From positions 1,383,970 to 1,447,969 of the forward strand of contig NZ_CP087263.1 of the NCBI RefSeq assembly GCF_020923435.1: a DNA stretch of 64,000 nt, read 5' to 3'. Below the pieces are notes generated by a model, which worked only from the letters and a program-made list of their open reading frames with translations, had not been told where the DNA came from and searched no databases. The position numbers were made by a program, and so were the translations under genes. This DNA comes from Brevibacillus humidisoli (GTDB taxonomy: Bacteria; Bacillota; Bacilli; Brevibacillales; Brevibacillaceae). Positions 4,944-21,845 of this stretch are shown one piece after another (within the stretch, counting starts at the first letter, position 1; every line of letters starts with the position of its first letter).

Positions 4944-6029
4944 ATGGGAACGATAGCCAACGAAATGAACAAGCTGCAAGTGGATACAGGGAAGGCCACC
5001 ATGAAGGCGATCATGAAACACAGGGCTGAACCGGGAGCCGAACTGCGGGAGGTGCCTGTACCGCAGATCGCGCCGCATGAGGTGCTGATTGAAGTGAAGG
5101 CTGCTTCCATCTGCGGTACTGACGTCCATATCTATACCTGGGATCCATGGGCAGAGAGCCGGATCAAAACCCCGATGGTTTTCGGACATGAATTCGCAGG
5201 AGTTGTCGTGGAAGTAGGCAGCATGGTGACAGGCGTGCAGGTAGGAGACTACGTCTCAGCGGAGACACATGTCGTCTGTCACCAGTGTCTGCAATGTCTG
5301 ACCGGACAATATCACGTCTGCCAAAACACCAGGATTCTGGGTGTTGATTTTCAGGGCTGCTTTGCCGAGTACGTCAAGATTCCGGCAGAAAACGTATGGA
5401 AGAACCCTGCGGATATGCCGTATGAAGTAGCTTCGGTTCAGGAACCGATGGGCAATGCTGTTCATACGGTGCTGGCCGGCCCAATAGCGGGGAAAACGGT
5501 CGCCATCGTCGGCTGCGGTCCGATCGGTCTATTGGCCGTGGCCGTTGCCAAAGCATCAGGAGCGACGGAGGTGGTTGCCCTTGACGTCAATGCCTATCGA
5601 CTAGATTTGGCTCGTAAAGTTGGAGCGACGGTAACGATCAATTCCCTTGACGAGGACCCTGTAAAAAAGGTGATGCAGGTGACGGGGGGCATGGGAGTGG
5701 AAGTAGTTTGCGAGATGTCGGGCCATCCGGTAGCCATTCGGCAGGCATTGGAGATGTTGACCAACGGCGGGAGAATGTCGATCCTCAGTCTTCCCTCACG
5801 ACCAGTGGAAGTGGATCTGACCAATCAGGTGGTGTTCAAAGGTGTGACGGTGCAGGGGATTACCGGGCGACGCATCTTTGAGACCTGGAGACAAACATCT
5901 GGCTTCCTCCACTCGGGTCAGGTAGATGTCCAACCGTTGATCACCCATACCCTGCCGTTGGAGCGGTTCGCGGAAGGATTTGAGCTGATGACGAGTGGAC
6001 AGTGTGGCAAGGTTGTACTGCTTCCTTAA
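4944..6029 (+). CDS. tdh: L-threonine 3-dehydrogenase
   Basis: 361 residues, zinc-dependent medium-chain dehydrogenase. Oxidises L-threonine to 2-amino-3-oxobutyrate with NAD. Catalytic zinc ligands are seen in [10 protein letters not shown] and FGHEFAG, structural zinc cysteines in [15 protein letters not shown], and the Rossmann glycines in [11 protein letters not shown]. The N-terminus is about 15-20 residues longer than usual, so an internal start (ATG at 5001) is possible; 4944 is kept because GAAAGGG precedes it. It is followed directly by kbl, the next enzyme, so the pair converts threonine to glycine and acetyl-CoA. Confidence 0.93.
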
Positions 6030-7543: not shown

Positions 7544-8722
7544 GTGAAAGAAATCGGTATTCTCCTGGACATGAACATCATCCGACTTGGATGCGAGGGA
7601 TTGAGAACCTACGAACGGTTGAACTACTACGAAAAAATCGGCCGAGAACTGGGATTGCAGCCCGTTTTTTTTCACCCTCTGCACGTAAACTTCCGTAGAG
7701 GAAGCGTCAAGGGATATTTATTAAGGGGGGGGCAAGCTCGTCCCCTACAGGACGAAGATTCCCCCCGTGGTCCACAACAGGATGTTAACCCGAAGAAAAG
7801 AGATTAACCAGATGATCCACCTATTGGGCAGGTACAGCAAGGTATACAATGGCATTATTGAACGAAATAAGCTGAACGTCCATCAGATCCTGTGGAAGAA
7901 CCCGTCGCTCCGTGTCTACCTGCCGGAGACAAAGCCATATACCCGTGAGGCACTGATAACCTTCTTGCAAAAATATCGAGTGATCTACATCAAGCGAGTC
8001 ATCGGTTATGTCGGGTTTGGTGTTATTCGCATCGAGCGTCAGGGAAGTCGTTTTCTGTGGATCTCCTCCAAACAGCGGCGTTTGGTGACCCGAGAAACGC
8101 TGCTGCGAAATGTTGGCAAATGGATTGGGCGTCGCCCATACCTGATTCAAAGGGGGATTCCGCTAAAAACCTACCAAGGAGCCCCTTTTGATATACGGGC
8201 ATCCGTGCAAAAAACGGGCAGGGTGTTTGGAACGTGACAGGCATGGTAGCCAAGATCGCCAATCCGAAAAACAAACTGAGTAATTTGGCCCAAGGAGGGC
8301 GAGCTGTACCGATCGATCAGGTTCTCTCCGAAATTTTTGAACCGGACAAAGTCACACAAGTAAAAGATAAGATTCACAAGGCAAGCATTGCGATAACGAG
8401 CTATTACGAACATCAATTCCCGTCCCTGGCTGATGTTGGGCTGGATATCGGGATTGATCGCAGCGGCAATCCATATCTAATCGAGATCAACGTTCGCGAT
8501 CAGCGCTATTCGTTTCTGGCGGCAGGCGAAGGGGACGTGTTTCAAAACACCTATCGCCTGCCCCTAGAGTACGCCAAGGGCCTAATGGAGGGGATGGTAA
8601 CAAGGGCTTCCACGACCACTTCGACAGCCCAGTCCAGCATGTCCGTCTCTCCTGTGCAGGGTGCAGCGGATACTGGAAACAGACCAGATCGATCTCAGAT
8701 TTCCAGCACTTCCATTAATTGA
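7544..8722 (+). pseudogene. YheC/YheD-family endospore coat-associated protein, two frameshifts
   Basis: The three reading frames 7544-7730, ~7733-8210 and ~8222-8722 join into one YheC/YheD protein of about 390 residues with an ATP-grasp-like C-terminal half (VTGMVAKIANPKNKLSN; DVGLDIGIDRSGNPYLIEIN). The first break is at a run of eight G (7725-7732), where seven would restore the frame into GGKLVPYRTK. The second is at a run of six A (~8208-8213), where seven would restore NGQGVWNVTG. Both breaks are in homopolymers, so sequencing error is a real possibility. GTG 7544 has AGAGGGG 7 bases upstream. In B. subtilis the family is expressed in the mother cell and found in the coat. Confidence 0.8.
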
Positions 8723-16894: not shown

Positions 16895-17078
16895 GCAGCC
16901 CCTTCTTCTTACCCTCTCTCGGCACAGGCACAGCACCGGGGTGTTTCTTCGTATATATAACTTTGGAAGCTGCTCAGGGTCGTCAAGTTTTTCCCAAAAC
17001 GGTACCTGCTTTTCTTGCACCCTAGACGAATGACCTGCATACAAATGTACAGAAACGTTGTATGGAGGAGGGAACGAA

Positions 17079-17636
17079 ATGTCGGGTACAGACAAAGACC
17101 TGCAGTGCCGGGAACTCATCGCAAAAGCCGTATGTGGCAAAGGACATAAATTTTCCCAAACGACACATACCATTTTGCCATCACATACACCTTCGACCAT
17201 CCTTGGATGCTGGGTTGCCAATAACAGTTTTCAGGCGGAAAAAGTCGGAGATGCGATCGAAATTACTGGTACGTATGACGTCAACCTGTGGTATTCATTC
17301 AAAGACAACACGCAAACAGAAGTAAAGAAGGAAACGGTCTCCTATTCCGAACTGGTACCCCTGTCCTTCTTTGACAGCCACTGCCGGGGTGACTTGGAAA
17401 TCATCGCACACGCCGTCGAGCAGCCCAAGTGCGTCAAAGCAGAGATTTCCGGAGGCGGTACGGTAACCGTTCGCGTAGAGAAGGAGTTTGCGGTTGAAGT
17501 GATTGGTGAAACCAAAGTATGTGTCGTCGTATGCGCGGGTGGTTGCGATGACAAGGATTATGACGGCGGCTTTGATGAAACAAGCGACGAGTTTGACGAA
17601 TTCGAATCAACCGATTTGTTTGATGAATTGGACTGA
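17079..17636 (+). CDS. cotE: outer spore coat morphogenetic protein CotE
   Basis: 185 residues (B. subtilis CotE is 181). CotE is the mother-cell protein that directs assembly of the outer spore coat. The N-terminal region (ELIAKAVCGKGHKFSQ, then HTILPSHTPSTILGCWVANN) and the ITGTYDVNLWYSF motif are those of the family. The C-terminus is strongly acidic (DETSDEFDEFESTD), as expected. ATG 17079 has GGAGG upstream, and the longer frame from 17058 has no site. The gene follows miaB-ricA as in B. subtilis. Confidence 0.95.
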   Translation: MSGTDKDLQCRELIAKAVCGKGHKFSQTTHTILPSHTPSTILGCWVANNSFQAEKVGDAIEITGTYDVNLWYSFKDNTQTEVKKETVSYSELVPLSFFDSHCRGDLEIIAHAVEQPKCVKAEISGGGTVTVRVEKEFAVEVIGETKVCVVVCAGGCDDKDYDGGFDETSDEFDEFESTDLFDELD

Positions 17637-17637
17637 T

Positions 17638-17671
17638 AGAGAGGGGACGAAAGACTCCTCTCTTTTTTTCT
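17638..17671 (+). terminator. terminator of cotE
   Basis: A G-rich/C-rich stem (GAGAGGGG with CTCCTCTC) followed by TTTTTTT. Confidence 0.85.
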
Positions 17672-17731: not shown

Positions 17732-17770
17732 ACGTCTCTTATTTCCCTGGCATAGGCTAACGCATAGCCT
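17732..17770 (+). promoter_or_regulatory. candidate sigma-K promoter of the amidoligase-like gene, with palindrome
   Basis: CATAGGCTA at 17751-17759 fits the sigma-K -10 consensus CATANNNTA exactly. An AC dinucleotide at 17732-17733 lies 17 bases upstream, as the -35 requires. The -10 overlaps a perfect inverted repeat, AGGCTA (17754-17759) and TAGCCT (17765-17770), that could bind a regulator. The distance to the ATG at 17800 suits a short leader. Short motifs arise by chance, so this is a prediction. Confidence 0.45.
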
Positions 17771-17799
17771 GTGATCACTGGCGGAGAGGGGCGGACGGT

Positions 17800-19167
17800 A
17801 TGGTCGAAACCACGGTGCGTCCGAATTCCGACAATGTGTCTGATGCGTCCGGCATTGTCTTGGATGACACGACTCTGAATCGACGTCATGCAGTCGATCT
17901 TTGTAAACAGTATATGCCGTTGCTTTCTGTTTTACGTATGAATGGTATCCCTGTTCTTCCGATTTCTCGACAGCGACCAGGAGAATCGAGGAAACCCGGA
18001 CCAGCAAGACGATATTATGTACACCTGTTTCAGCAGCATCTGCTTTGCCTATTAAGGGCTGAGACACCAAGTGTCTGGCTGCATCGTCAGGCAGAGAGTC
18101 GGGAGAGCCTGCGTTTTTCCCAGACAATCCACCTCCCGGACGATCCTGAGCAAAAGCAGGTGCAGCAGTTGGCTGTCCGCAGTTTGTATGCGGCGGGACT
18201 TGACTATGGCGCCGTTTACCTCGGCGCGTACAGCCCCAATCGCATACGTGTGCTGGATGTTCATCCAACGCCACTGGGAGACAGGAATCTGCTTCTTCCA
18301 CTTTACCGTGAGGCATGTGAACGGTATCGACAGCAGCAAATAGAGGAAGAGCATACCCGGCCCGAAGTGGTATTAGGGGCTGATCCCGAATACGCGTTGC
18401 GCGATCCTTCAGGACAGATCGGGATTGCGTCGCGCTTTTTGCCAAAGCGCGGCATGGTCGGTTGCGACGCCGCCAGGCTGCGAGATGCCCCGTTGTCCCG
18501 CGAACACCCGCTGGTGGAGTTGCGACCTGACCCATCCGATGATCCTGACGTGCTGTTTGCTCATATCCGTCATGCGCTTCACAAGGCGGCCAACATGATT
18601 ACCGACCGTTCATTGGAGTGGATCGCAGGAGGTATGCCGTTTCCGGAGTACCCGATTGGCGGTCACATCCATTTCAGTGGCGTTTCTTTCAGTTTTCAGC
18701 TGGTTCGTGCGTTAGATACCTATTTAACGCTGCCGCTTGCGTTGGTCGAGGATCCTGGCTGCCGCGAGCGGCGGCCCCGATACGGGTTTCTCGGTGACTT
18801 TCGTCTGCAGCCGTATGGTGGGTTTGAATACCGCACCCCGCCTAGTTGGCTGGTTACGCCGATTGTCACACGGGGAGTGCTCTCGCTGGCAAAGCTGATC
18901 GCTGCCAACTACCGACAGTTGCGACAGCAGCCGCTAGGCGATCCGCGAGTACAGCGAGCATACTACACGGGAGATGCAGCACGTTTGCGGCCGATCGTTG
19001 AACAGCTATGGGGAGAACTCGTCTGGCTGCCGCAATACGATCGCTTTCGTCAGGCACTCGATCCGCTGTTTGACTACTTATGGTCCGAGACAGTCTGGCC
19101 AGCGGACAAAGATTTTCGTTCTGCGTGGGATTTGCCTTCAGCTCTCAACAAGCGTCGCAAGGCATGA
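17800..19167 (+). CDS. putative amidoligase (COOH-NH2 ligase type 2, phiEco32-like)
   Basis: 455 residues. The C-terminal half has the pattern of the ATP-dependent carboxylate-amine ligase family related to glutamine synthetase: GADPEYAL (~residue 192), GCDAARLR, VELRPDPS, GGHIHFSG, ALVEDPG and YGGFEYRTPPSWL. The acidic residues of GADPEY and VELRPDP and the histidines of GGHIHFSG are plausible metal/ATP ligands. The N-terminal ~180 residues are not recognised. No peptide substrate is known. GAGAGGGG precedes the ATG. It lies alone between cotE and mutS, with a sigma-K-like promoter, so a role in modifying the spore coat is a reasonable inference. Confidence 0.72.
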   Translation: MVETTVRPNSDNVSDASGIVLDDTTLNRRHAVDLCKQYMPLLSVLRMNGIPVLPISRQRPGESRKPGPARRYYVHLFQQHLLCLLRAETPSVWLHRQAESRESLRFSQTIHLPDDPEQKQVQQLAVRSLYAAGLDYGAVYLGAYSPNRIRVLDVHPTPLGDRNLLLPLYREACERYRQQQIEEEHTRPEVVLGADPEYALRDPSGQIGIASRFLPKRGMVGCDAARLRDAPLSREHPLVELRPDPSDDPDVLFAHIRHALHKAANMITDRSLEWIAGGMPFPEYPIGGHIHFSGVSFSFQLVRALDTYLTLPLALVEDPGCRERRPRYGFLGDFRLQPYGGFEYRTPPSWLVTPIVTRGVLSLAKLIAANYRQLRQQPLGDPRVQRAYYTGDAARLRPIVEQLWGELVWLPQYDRFRQALDPLFDYLWSETVWPADKDFRSAWDLPSALNKRRKA

Positions 19168-19209: not shown

Positions 19210-21845
19210 ATGGAACAATACACGCCGATGATTCAACAGTATCTGGCGATTAAAAAAGAGTACCCGGACAGCTTCTTGTTTTTTCGCCTCGGTGATTTTT
19301 ACGAGATGTTCTTTGACGATGCGATCACAGCTTCCCGTGAGCTGGAGATTACCTTGACCGGACGTGACGGGGGTGGAACCGAACGGATACCGATGTGCGG
19401 CGTCCCTCATCATTCGGCCGAGAACTACATCGCCGAGTTGGTAAGAAAAGGCTACAAAGTGGCGATCTGCGAACAGGTGGAAGATCCGAAAACGGCTAAA
19501 GGCGTTGTCCGCCGGGAAGTCACCCGTGTGATCACTCCCGGCACGATGATGGAAGACAAGTACTTGTCGGCCAAGGAAAACAATTATCTGGTGGCGATTG
19601 CCGCAGTTGGCGGCAGGGAAGGAGTAGCAGCCGCAGATGTAAGTACGGGTGAGATTCTCGTCACCTCCGTGTCGGCTTCGGGTGAAGGTGGTCTAGAGGA
19701 GGCACTCCAATACCGACCGAGCGAGTTGATCCTCTGTGGGGATCTTCCTGCCTCATATGCAAACGGGCGAACCGTTACGCTGATCACAAGGGATGAGGTG
19801 GACCCCACGTCTGCCAAACAGCAGTTTTCTACCGAGGCAGGGAGCCTCGATGAGGCGATGCTGCTTGCCGTCAATGCCCTGCTTTTATACATAATCAGGA
19901 CGCAGAAGCGCAGCCTCAGTCATCTTCGCCGCCTGCTCCCATACGAAGCCAGACAGTTTTTGCAGATGGATCCCTTTTCCCGTCGCAATCTGGAGTTAAC
20001 AGAGACCATACGGGACAAGCAGAAAAAAGGTTCGCTGCTCTGGCTGTTAGACAAGACAGAGACAGCGATGGGCGGACGGATGCTGCGCCGCTGGATCGAA
20101 CGTCCGCTCTTGGATGAAGCGCAGATTAATGAGCGGTTGCAAGTGGTGGAGCAGATCAAGCAAGATCTGCTGCTTAGAACCGACATCCGGGAAGCGCTGC
20201 ATCAGGTGTATGATCTGGAGCGATTGGCGGGGCGCATCGCATACGGCAGCGCTAACGGGCGGGATTTGGTGCAGCTTCGCCATTCGCTGGAAGCGATCCC
20301 CGCGCTGAAAGAACGGCTGCTGGCTAGTGGGATGCCGGAGCTTTCCCGGTTAACGGAAGGGATGGACGAATGCAGCGATCTGGTTGAATTGCTGGGACGG
20401 TCACTGGTCGATGATCCCCCGGTCTCCGTACGCGAAGGGGGGCTCATCCGCAGCGGCTATGACGCCTACCTGGACAAACTTCGTGAGGCAAGCCGGGAAG
20501 GGAAGAACTGGATCGCCCAGTTGGAACAAGCGGAACGGGAGGCAACCGGGATTCGCTCGTTGAAAGTAGGCTTCAACAAAGTATTTGGCTATTATCTGGA
20601 AGTATCCCGTGCCAACCTGTCCGCTATACCGGAGGGACGCTACGAGCGAAAACAGACGTTGGCTAACGCTGAACGATTTATCACTCCAGAGTTGAAAGAA
20701 AAAGAAGCGCTGATTCTGGAAGCGGAAGAGAAAATGGTAGAACTGGAATACCAGTTGTTCGTGCAGATTCGCAGCGAGGTTGCTGCCCATATTCCGCGCA
20801 TCCAGACCCTAGCCGAGCAGGTGGCTGCTGTGGATGTGCTGCAATCGTTTGCAACGGTAAGTGATGAACGGCGATTTGTGCGCCCCGAGCTGGCCGCCGA
20901 TGGCGAATTCGTGATCCGCGATGGCCGTCATGCTGTGGTCGAGGCGGTGCTGGACAAGGAGACCTACGTCTCCAACGATGTGGAATTAAATCATCAGGAC
21001 CGACAGATTCTCTTGATCACCGGTCCGAATATGGCCGGGAAAAGCACGTACATGCGGCAAATCGCGCTCATGGCTGTGATGGCTCAGATTGGTGTTTTGT
21101 GCCAGCCAGCTATGCCCGTCTGTCCCTTGTGGACCAGATCTTTACACGAATCGGTGCTGCCGATGACTTGGTTGGCGGCCATAGTACCTTCATGGTGGAG
21201 ATGCTGGAGACGAAAAACGCACTCTCGAAAGCAACTTCCCGCAGTTTAATCCTCTTGGACGAGATCGGCCGCGGTACGTCTACCTACGACGGGATGGCGC
21301 TTGCCCAGGCGGTGATCGAGTACATCCATGAGAGAATTGGCGCCAAGACACTGTTTTCCACCCATTATCACGAATTGACTTCATTGGAAGAGAGCCTGCC
21401 GCGGCTTGTCAATGTGAACGCCCGCTGCGAAGAGCGGGATGGGCAGCTGCTGTTTCTACACAAGATTGAACCGGGACGTGCCGACAAAAGTTATGGGATT
21501 CACGTTGCGCAACTAGCGGAGCTGCCCGCAGAGGTGATTTCACGTGCTCGTCAGATCCTACATCAGTTGGAGACAAAACGTGATCAGACCCAAGTGGAGC
21601 AGATCAGTTTGGATTTATTTGGCGAGACGGCGGCTGCCGAGACAGGGACGATGACGACCGGGTCGAAGCGGAAAGCATCTACCAGTCATCACCTCCCGTC
21701 TGAGGTTCCTGATTCGGTAGTGCCTCCGATTGCCGACGCTGATCAGGAGGTCCTGCGGGAACTGCTGGAGACGGACCTTGACCGACTCCCGCCGATTGAG
21801 GCTCTGGTGAAACTTTCCGACTGGAAGCAACGTTTAAAGAAATAA
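19210..21845 (+). pseudogene. mutS: DNA mismatch repair protein MutS, one frameshift in the ATPase domain
   Basis: The first frame (19210 to stop ~21249) carries the mismatch-reading motif GDFYEMF (Phe30, Glu32), the connector, lever and clamp domains and Walker [10 protein letters not shown] (from residue ~605). The frame is lost near 21093 (residue ~628), where one missing base, probably T, would restore the family sequence [13 protein letters not shown]. The second frame (21099-21845) then continues with [14 protein letters not shown], the Walker [28 protein letters not shown] and a C-terminal tail. Repaired length would be ~878, normal for MutS. As written, the product lacks Walker B. Whether this is real or a read error cannot be told here. 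Confidence 0.88.

Follow-up and report, generated by a model that had tools for sequence, protein, structure and literature searches.

A Predicted Amide Ligase Gene Linked to cotE and Preceded by a Sigma-K-type Promoter Box in Brevibacillus

Results

The Ligase Gene Lies between cotE and mutS

The window, meaning the whole 64,000-nucleotide stretch of Brevibacillus humidisoli DNA that was analyzed, contains a gene for a predicted amide ligase directly downstream of cotE. The features of this region, in window coordinates, are as follows.

17079–17636, + strand: cotE, outer spore coat morphogenetic protein (PF10628, E 8.5e-74), with an alternative TTG start at 17058
17638–17669, + strand: probable intrinsic terminator of cotE, a hairpin with a T-run, read by eye
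17732–17733, + strand: −35 element AC of a sigma-K-type promoter; an AC at 16 or 17 nt is kept in orthologous gaps
17751–17759, + strand: −10 element CATAGGCTA of the sigma-K-type promoter
17754–17770, no strand: inverted repeat AGGCTA-5-TAGCCT, probably incidental
17800–19167, + strand: amide-ligase gene, 455 amino acids, assigned from the open frame, Pfam, and the distribution of homologues
17800–18363, + strand: N-terminal domain (residues 1–188), ATP-grasp-like fold without the catalytic acid, from AlphaFold, Foldseek, VIA, and alignment
18373–19134, + strand: catalytic COOH-NH2 ligase domain (residues 192–445), glutamine-synthetase-like, from PF14395, the YbdK fold match, and conserved residues

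The initial annotation had described a 455-residue gene with amidoligase motifs standing alone between cotE and mutS. Both parts of that description are borne out, as GADPEY, VELRPDP, GGHIHFSG, and YGGFEYRTPPSW are all located in the protein, and mutS starts on the same strand 42 nt past the end of the gene. The order upstream is miaB, a ricA/ymcA-type gene, and cotE, names with which the Pfam results fit; the downstream genes mutS, mutL, miaA, and hfq were named by eye from their sequences and served as tblastn queries. The COOH-NH2 ligase type 2 profile that had been proposed for the protein, PF14395 (COOH-NH2_lig), matches it with an E value of 7.3e-96 and 320.7 bits, well over the gathering threshold (cut-off 25), and residues 192–445 account for positions 1–254 of the 254 in the profile. 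An NCBIfam search with the protein returned no family, a phmmer search for PDB relatives by sequence (E 1) returned none, and a PDB search with the ligase profile gave two unconvincing matches (E 0.18 and 0.53). The mutS gene of the window (19210–21845) is itself split over two frames, which correspond to residues 1–631 and 629–878 of an 878-residue relative (L021) and join near 21093–21102, by a real frameshift or a sequencing error.

Every Sampled Carrier of the Ligase Family Has CotE and SpoIVA

Homologues were found in 32 of 39 close genomes, and a profile search identified the PF14395 family in 161 of 299 genomes sampled from one class, Bacilli judging by the named relatives, with the gene present in all 26 listed genomes of the window's family, the Brevibacillaceae. 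CotE and SpoIVA were each found in 210 of the 299 genomes and the two sets are identical. All 161 ligase carriers possess CotE and SpoIVA, whereas there is no carrier among the other 89 genomes (Fisher p about 1e-40, with kinship ignored), and 49 of the 210 CotE genomes do not have the ligase gene. The family is restricted, then, to genomes with coat morphogenetic genes, and, as judged by this distribution, the ligase gene is a sporulation gene. Among 14 control genomes CotE was found only in Bacillus subtilis and PF14395 in none, B. subtilis included.

The initial annotation had regarded the family as known mainly from phage, which is wrong given its presence in over half the genomes sampled and a tblastn search of the ligase against 50,697 phage records in which nothing was found at E 1e-3. 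The related proposal of a phage origin, under which the gene would sit in the cotE-mutS gap as a passenger with no role or a vegetative one, draws on the naming of PF14395 after phage phiEco32 by Pfam and on 13 viral contigs with distant relatives. These relatives share 23–34% identity over stretches that start at residue 168 or later. Together with the empty phage-record search, the wide distribution tied to CotE and SpoIVA and a promoter box kept in two families (see below) make a passenger highly improbable, and it was rejected.

The spore coat transglutaminase family Tgl (PF20085) was followed over the same 210 CotE genomes and occurs in 57 of the 161 with the ligase and 21 of the 49 without it (p 0.40). 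Replacement of Tgl by the ligase was rejected, since presence and absence are not anticorrelated; the window's genome encodes both.

The Gene Is Linked to cotE Rather than to mutS

The location beside cotE proposed as a point of comparison with relatives holds at both levels surveyed. Both coordinates are listed for 107 of the 161 carriers, and 106 of these have cotE no more than 6 kb upstream in the same orientation. The ligase profile begins at most 2.2 kb downstream of the cotE profile in 95 and at 2.2–6 kb in 11; in the remaining genome (G155) the two are far apart. Among the named loci, which are the best 80 of 463, all but that of Tumebacillus lacus (L161) have cotE at most 3.2 kb upstream in the same orientation (79 loci, 77 of which have it at 1.35 kb or less). 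In L210 only 2 nt separate the open frames of cotE and the ligase gene. The position of mutS is more variable. It lies kilobases away in L044 and L048 and is displaced by a further 1 to 2.7 kb in five loci of the Thermoactinomycetaceae (L128, L142, L143, L148, and L168), in all of which cotE is still near the ligase gene, and it was not found in L053, L161, L177, and L181. Since mutS is displaced while cotE stays close, the partner of the ligase gene is cotE rather than mutS. Reverse-transcriptase/maturase-like open frames, recognized by eye, lie between the ligase gene and mutS in L128 (5921–7843) and L142 (6084–7505). The locus titled Anoxybacillus sediminis (L113) falls in the Brevibacillaceae, and its name looks misapplied.

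A Sigma-K-type Box Is Conserved in Two Families

In 23 of the 24 Brevibacillaceae gaps and 22 of the 24 from Thermoactinomycetaceae, the first 80 nt after the cotE stop include a run of at least five T residues. As a terminator-like hairpin follows cotE, the ligase gene should need a promoter of its own. We take the letters of the sigma-K consensus to be AC-N16/17-CATANNNTA, hereafter the strict box. A −35 AC and a −10 CATANNNTA at this distance span 17732–17759, where the initial annotation had placed a consensus match, with a spacer of 17 nt between AC and CATAGGCTA and a further 40 nt to the ATG. In an excerpt of PMC517825 the sigma-K elements are given as a 5-nt −35 and a 10-nt −10 with a gap of 14–16.

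The strict box occurs at 111 sites on both strands of the 4.9-Mb genome, and its chance expectation on one strand of the 163-nt cotE-ligase gap is about 0.002. There is no genome-wide enrichment, the reversed control having 241 sites, so that single sites mean little and the argument is one of conservation. On the sense strand the strict box is present in 13 of 24 Brevibacillaceae cotE-ligase gaps and on the antisense strand in none, with a mean of 0.07 and a maximum of 1 over 300 shuffles. In the named loci, whose Brevibacillaceae members overlap in part with the genomes of that 24-gap set, 15 of the 24 Brevibacillaceae gaps have it, with none on the antisense strand and 0.05 in shuffles. For the Thermoactinomycetaceae, whose genera were checked, the count is 18 of 24, with 2 on the antisense strand and 0.075 in shuffles. 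Dropping the last A gives a relaxed box, found in 21 of 24 gaps in the Brevibacillaceae (antisense 0, shuffles 0.225) and likewise 21 of 24 in the Thermoactinomycetaceae (antisense 3, shuffles 0.6). The relaxed form was framed after reading the Brevibacillaceae gaps, and consequently the strict Thermoactinomycetaceae count is the only independent test. The strict box was seen in 1 of the 31 remaining named gaps (Paenibacillus 0/14, Aneurinibacillus 0/3) and in none of 8 loci outside the Brevibacillaceae in the first gap survey; the aligned Paenibacillus gaps have a hairpin after cotE in most rows without the strict box. As support for sigma-K control, the box therefore stands in two families and is missing outside them.

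Within 250 nt upstream of neighboring genes the strict box was absent from cotE, mutS, and mutL (0/23 each) and from ricA and miaB (0/22 each). An excerpt of PMC517825 assigns a sigma-K promoter to B. subtilis cotE, which means that the pattern overlooks real sites or that cotE is different in these genomes. Elsewhere in the window's genome the strict box precedes a 73-residue gerE-type gene (PF00196), cotJA, cotJB, and spoVIF, and the sites upstream of cotJA and cotJB have the same CATAGGCTA 9-mer with AC-N17. Four of 18 regions around strict-box sites led to spore genes, where the 18 were picked by eye among the listed part of the 111 sites and seven downstream proteins were put to Pfam; no candidate gene emerged from regions L084, L087, L091, and L096. 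At 395166–395567 of the same genome one and the same sigma-K-type match of 27 nt is present in four copies spaced 125 nt apart, a pattern suggestive of a tandem repeat.

Sigma-E in place of sigma-K was tried with one crude pattern and rejected, the counts in the two box-bearing families (0/24 and 1/24) being at or near shuffle level. The palindrome that had been reported to overlap the −10 element does exist. With arms of 6 bp and no counterpart seen in the related gaps listed, it was rejected as an operator.

The close spacing of the ligase gene and mutS in the window would also allow the conserved box to serve as a late mother-cell promoter for mutS, with the ligase gene as a bystander. In the five Thermoactinomycetaceae loci with displaced mutS, however, the ligase gene has kept both cotE and the relaxed box, and in the two that were inspected (L128 and L142) an open frame has been inserted before mutS; mutS is also remote in L044 and L048. 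A mutS promoter is accordingly the least probable of the explanations considered.

The C-terminal Domain Is a Predicted Active Ligase of the Glutamine Synthetase Fold

The AlphaFold model of the full ligase has a pLDDT of 89.9 and a pTM of 0.90. Many of the glutamine synthetase rows in a Foldseek search with the whole protein had r.m.s. deviations near 20, for which reason domain-wise VIA alignment was preferred. Residues 186–450 aligned with YbdK (1r8g) with Z 17.1 and an r.m.s. deviation of 3.2 over 242 residues, followed by Dop (Z 15.8), PafA (15.1), plant glutamate-cysteine ligase (15.1), and glutamine synthetase (about 12). On the predicted model, the C-terminal domain has the fold of glutamine synthetase and the glutamate-cysteine ligases. 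Against a viral fold library, three matches reached E 0.001 or better; one is an amidoligase, one an ATP-grasp protein, and one a protein without a name.

Three ligase alignments were used, comprising 25 of 34 sequences (A1), 58 of 81 (A2), and 56 of those 58 (A3). Thirteen hand-chosen polar positions of the C-terminal domain, namely Asp195, Glu197, Asp223, Glu240, Arg242, His289, His291, Glu317, Arg324, Arg325, Arg335, Glu343, and Arg345, are identical in 58 of 58 sequences with identity to the window protein down to 34%; their roles we presume from glutamine synthetase. That residues of catalytic type are unchanged throughout argues for selection on catalysis, and the domain is predicted from this conservation to be an active ligase.

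The N-terminal Domain Is Probably a Degenerate ATP-grasp Module

Residues 15–178 of the full model aligned by VIA with RimK (Z 14.5, r.m.s. deviation 2.9, 141 residues), and the N-terminal domain modeled alone (pLDDT 84.6) gave a similar match (Z 13.7, r.m.s. deviation 3.3, 148 residues). Foldseek with this domain returned ATP-grasp-fold proteins in all 50 rows among the matches listed, and on these models the domain has an ATP-grasp fold. Pfam gave no match for the N-terminal domain of the window protein and, for the other 55 members, weak matches only and no ATP-grasp family. By hhalign, the domain matched YheC/YheD with a probability of 72 and an E value of 3.4e-5 over 27 columns, in which the last conserved motif of both is aligned. 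The correspondence of positions with ATP-grasp enzymes rests on this 27-column match and on the motifs of RimK, whose positions we take to locate the catalytic acid.

At the catalytic-acid position (139), valine is found in 55 and isoleucine in 3 of the 58 sequences; position 153 is glutamate in 3 and aspartate in 25, and position 155 is asparagine in 13. The corresponding Glu, Asp, Glu, and Asn are retained in all nine rows of the YheC/YheD alignment, which represent nine neighbor genes. The ATP-grasp metal-binding acid and E-x-N motif were sought in the N-terminal domain of the 58 sequences and not recovered as such, and with Val or Ile in place of the catalytic acid in every sequence the domain was not classed as an active ATP-grasp enzyme. 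It is seen best as a degenerate ATP-grasp module, possibly with a task in substrate binding or docking. Taken together, the replaced acid in one domain and the invariant residues in the other indicate a degenerate N-terminal and a predicted active C-terminal domain.

This arrangement bears on whether the protein might be a structural coat component with little or no ligase activity. Degeneration has evidently occurred within this protein, as the N-terminal domain is already without its catalytic acid; the catalytic domain, by contrast, keeps all 13 residues over the same wide range of sequence identity, and a purely structural role is considered improbable.

YheC/YheD-like Genes Accompany the Ligase Gene in Some Families

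Eleven loci in which other genes separate cotE from the ligase gene were inspected, and in 10 of these the intervening genes are YheC/YheD-like ATP-grasp genes of PF14398, a family that we understand Pfam to describe as predicted to modify spore-wall proteins. They were recognized by Pfam in L044, L048, L053, L177, and L181 and by a profile built from those in L205–L209. L044, L048, L177, and L181 each have two such genes in this position, L053 has one, and L205–L209 have two or three each (in L205, one plus a second from a separate search). The eleventh locus, L027 from Brevibacillus dissolubilis, has a YetF-like gene instead. Two YheC/YheD-like genes lie upstream of the ligase gene in L161, where cotE is out of reach, and some loci have extra copies downstream. 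Six added regions had been chosen for a long cotE-ligase distance (five) or a divergent match (one). Paralogues in L051 and L052, away from cotE, are single proteins in which PF14395 is followed by PF14398; cotE was sought in both loci and not found. These fusions, at 5623–8280 of L051 and 5461–8070 of L052, are second copies, putatively of B. dissolubilis and Brevibacillus sp. SYP-B805.

Only 4 of the 80 named loci have YheC/YheD genes within flanks of up to 4 kb, and the cassette is thus a feature of some families. In a survey of 61 of the 299 genomes, cross-read by hand with the ligase and CotE lists, YheC/YheD matches at E 1e-20 or better were found in 48, comprising all 41 ligase carriers, 46 of the 51 CotE genomes, and 2 of the 10 others. 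One genome (G066) has four YheC/YheD matches and is without CotE, SpoIVA, and the ligase; its gene content indicates that the ligase goes with coat genes more strictly than YheC/YheD does.

In the window, a YheC/YheD-like gene at 7767–8722 is broken across two frames (PF14398 positions 11–135 and 131–254). A YheC/YheD cluster lies on the minus strand at 607455–612120 of the same genome (L069), with a sigma-K-type site, noticed later and outside the 18 chosen regions, 34 nt before the first open frame. The first gene of the cluster is broken across two frames, the broken copy being at 611340–612120, and a further match is found at 2649507 within an 817-residue open frame.

B. subtilis YheD, in excerpts of PMC7911427 and PMC7769602, self-interacts and is seen on the forespore first as two rings and later as a shell; its function is given in the former as not determined. 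Excerpts of PMC517825 list yheC and yheD of B. subtilis as sigma-E and SpoIIID genes, and an excerpt of PMC4431377 states that linked ATP-grasp and COOH-NH2 ligases often perform successive peptide ligations.

The ligase could be a sporulation enzyme that makes a soluble mother-cell compound, such as a gamma-glutamyl or other small peptide, or a compound for storage or redox purposes, in which case adjacency to cotE would reflect shared timing only. Its structural neighbors include YbdK, the glutamate-cysteine ligases, and GshF, all of which act on small molecules. Yet PafA and Dop, which act on protein, score nearly as high, and the linkage to cotE is persistent, with linkage in some families also to YheC/YheD genes, whose B. 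subtilis member YheD is depicted in the excerpts above as encasing the spore. A soluble product is unlikely, though it carries appreciable weight.

Discussion

The reading that we prefer, with a probability of roughly 0.6, is that the gene encodes a late mother-cell carboxylate-amine ligase with its own sigma-K-type promoter, which acts with YheC/YheD-type ligases on the CotE-organized coat. Computed support for it comprises the protein family, the predicted fold, the invariant residues, the restriction to CotE and SpoIVA genomes, the linkage to cotE and in some families to YheC/YheD, and the box in two families. The initial annotation had pointed to late mother-cell work in the coat, a suggestion that gains from the CotE/SpoIVA restriction, the two-family box, and the presence of YheC/YheD in the cassette. 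Expression in the mother cell, ligase activity, and coat proteins as its target are what we infer from the genomic and structural comparisons.

In the proposed mechanism, the ligase gene would be switched on by sigma-K in the mother cell at a late stage of sporulation. The C-terminal domain would use ATP to phosphorylate a carboxylate, and attack by an amine would then form an amide or isopeptide bond in the coat. YheC/YheD-type ligases might perform an adjoining step, with CotE supplying the surface. Coat proteins may in this way be tagged with an amino acid or short peptide, or else a small peptide of the coat may be the product.

A wider reading, offered tentatively and by analogy, is that CotE, the YheC/YheD-type ligases, and the glutamine-synthetase-like ligase might form a dedicated coat peptide-tagging system, overlooked because B. 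subtilis lost or never had the ligase. Such a system could provide covalent modification or cross-linking of coat proteins in much of the Bacilli, by a chemistry likened to pupylation and RimK-type glutamylation.

The insolubility and covalent joining of coat proteins are only partly explained from B. subtilis. A predicted amide ligase restricted to CotE/SpoIVA genomes, present in more than half of those sampled from the class and absent from B. subtilis, provides a concrete gene and enzyme in this context. It may reveal a coat-modifying chemistry that the B. subtilis model could not show, and it offers a partner reaction for YheC/YheD. The placing of a degenerate ATP-grasp domain, which could hold substrate, ahead of an apparently active ligase is an architecture without Pfam annotation. 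A literature search found no description of a cotE-adjacent amidoligase in sporulation in titles or abstract openings; Iyer et al. 2009, who reportedly classified the amidoligases, may mention related neighborhoods.

Compared with known systems, the window ligase matches the whole profile of the phage phiEco32-like ligases of PF14395 (E 7e-96) and differs from them in being chromosomal, tied to CotE and SpoIVA, and equipped with an extra N-terminal domain. The alignments of the viral relatives start at residue 168 or later and show 23–34% identity. With YbdK, glutamate-cysteine ligase, and glutamine synthetase it shares the fold of residues 186–450, but identity is 8–17% and the genomic setting is another. 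The Pup ligase PafA and the depupylase Dop also share this fold, at 9–13% identity, and are a precedent for its action on protein side chains. YheC/YheD-like ATP-grasp proteins (PF14398) are neighbors or fused partners of the ligase in some families and share the fold of its N-terminal domain, which there lacks the catalytic acid, whereas the active domain of the ligase is of another fold. Like the window ligase, GshF joins a glutamine-synthetase-like and an ATP-grasp domain, and its structure (3ln7) is in the VIA lists for both; in the window ligase, however, the domain order is reversed and the ATP-grasp part is degenerate. Tgl, which makes isopeptide bonds in the coat as the ligase might, belongs to a different family.
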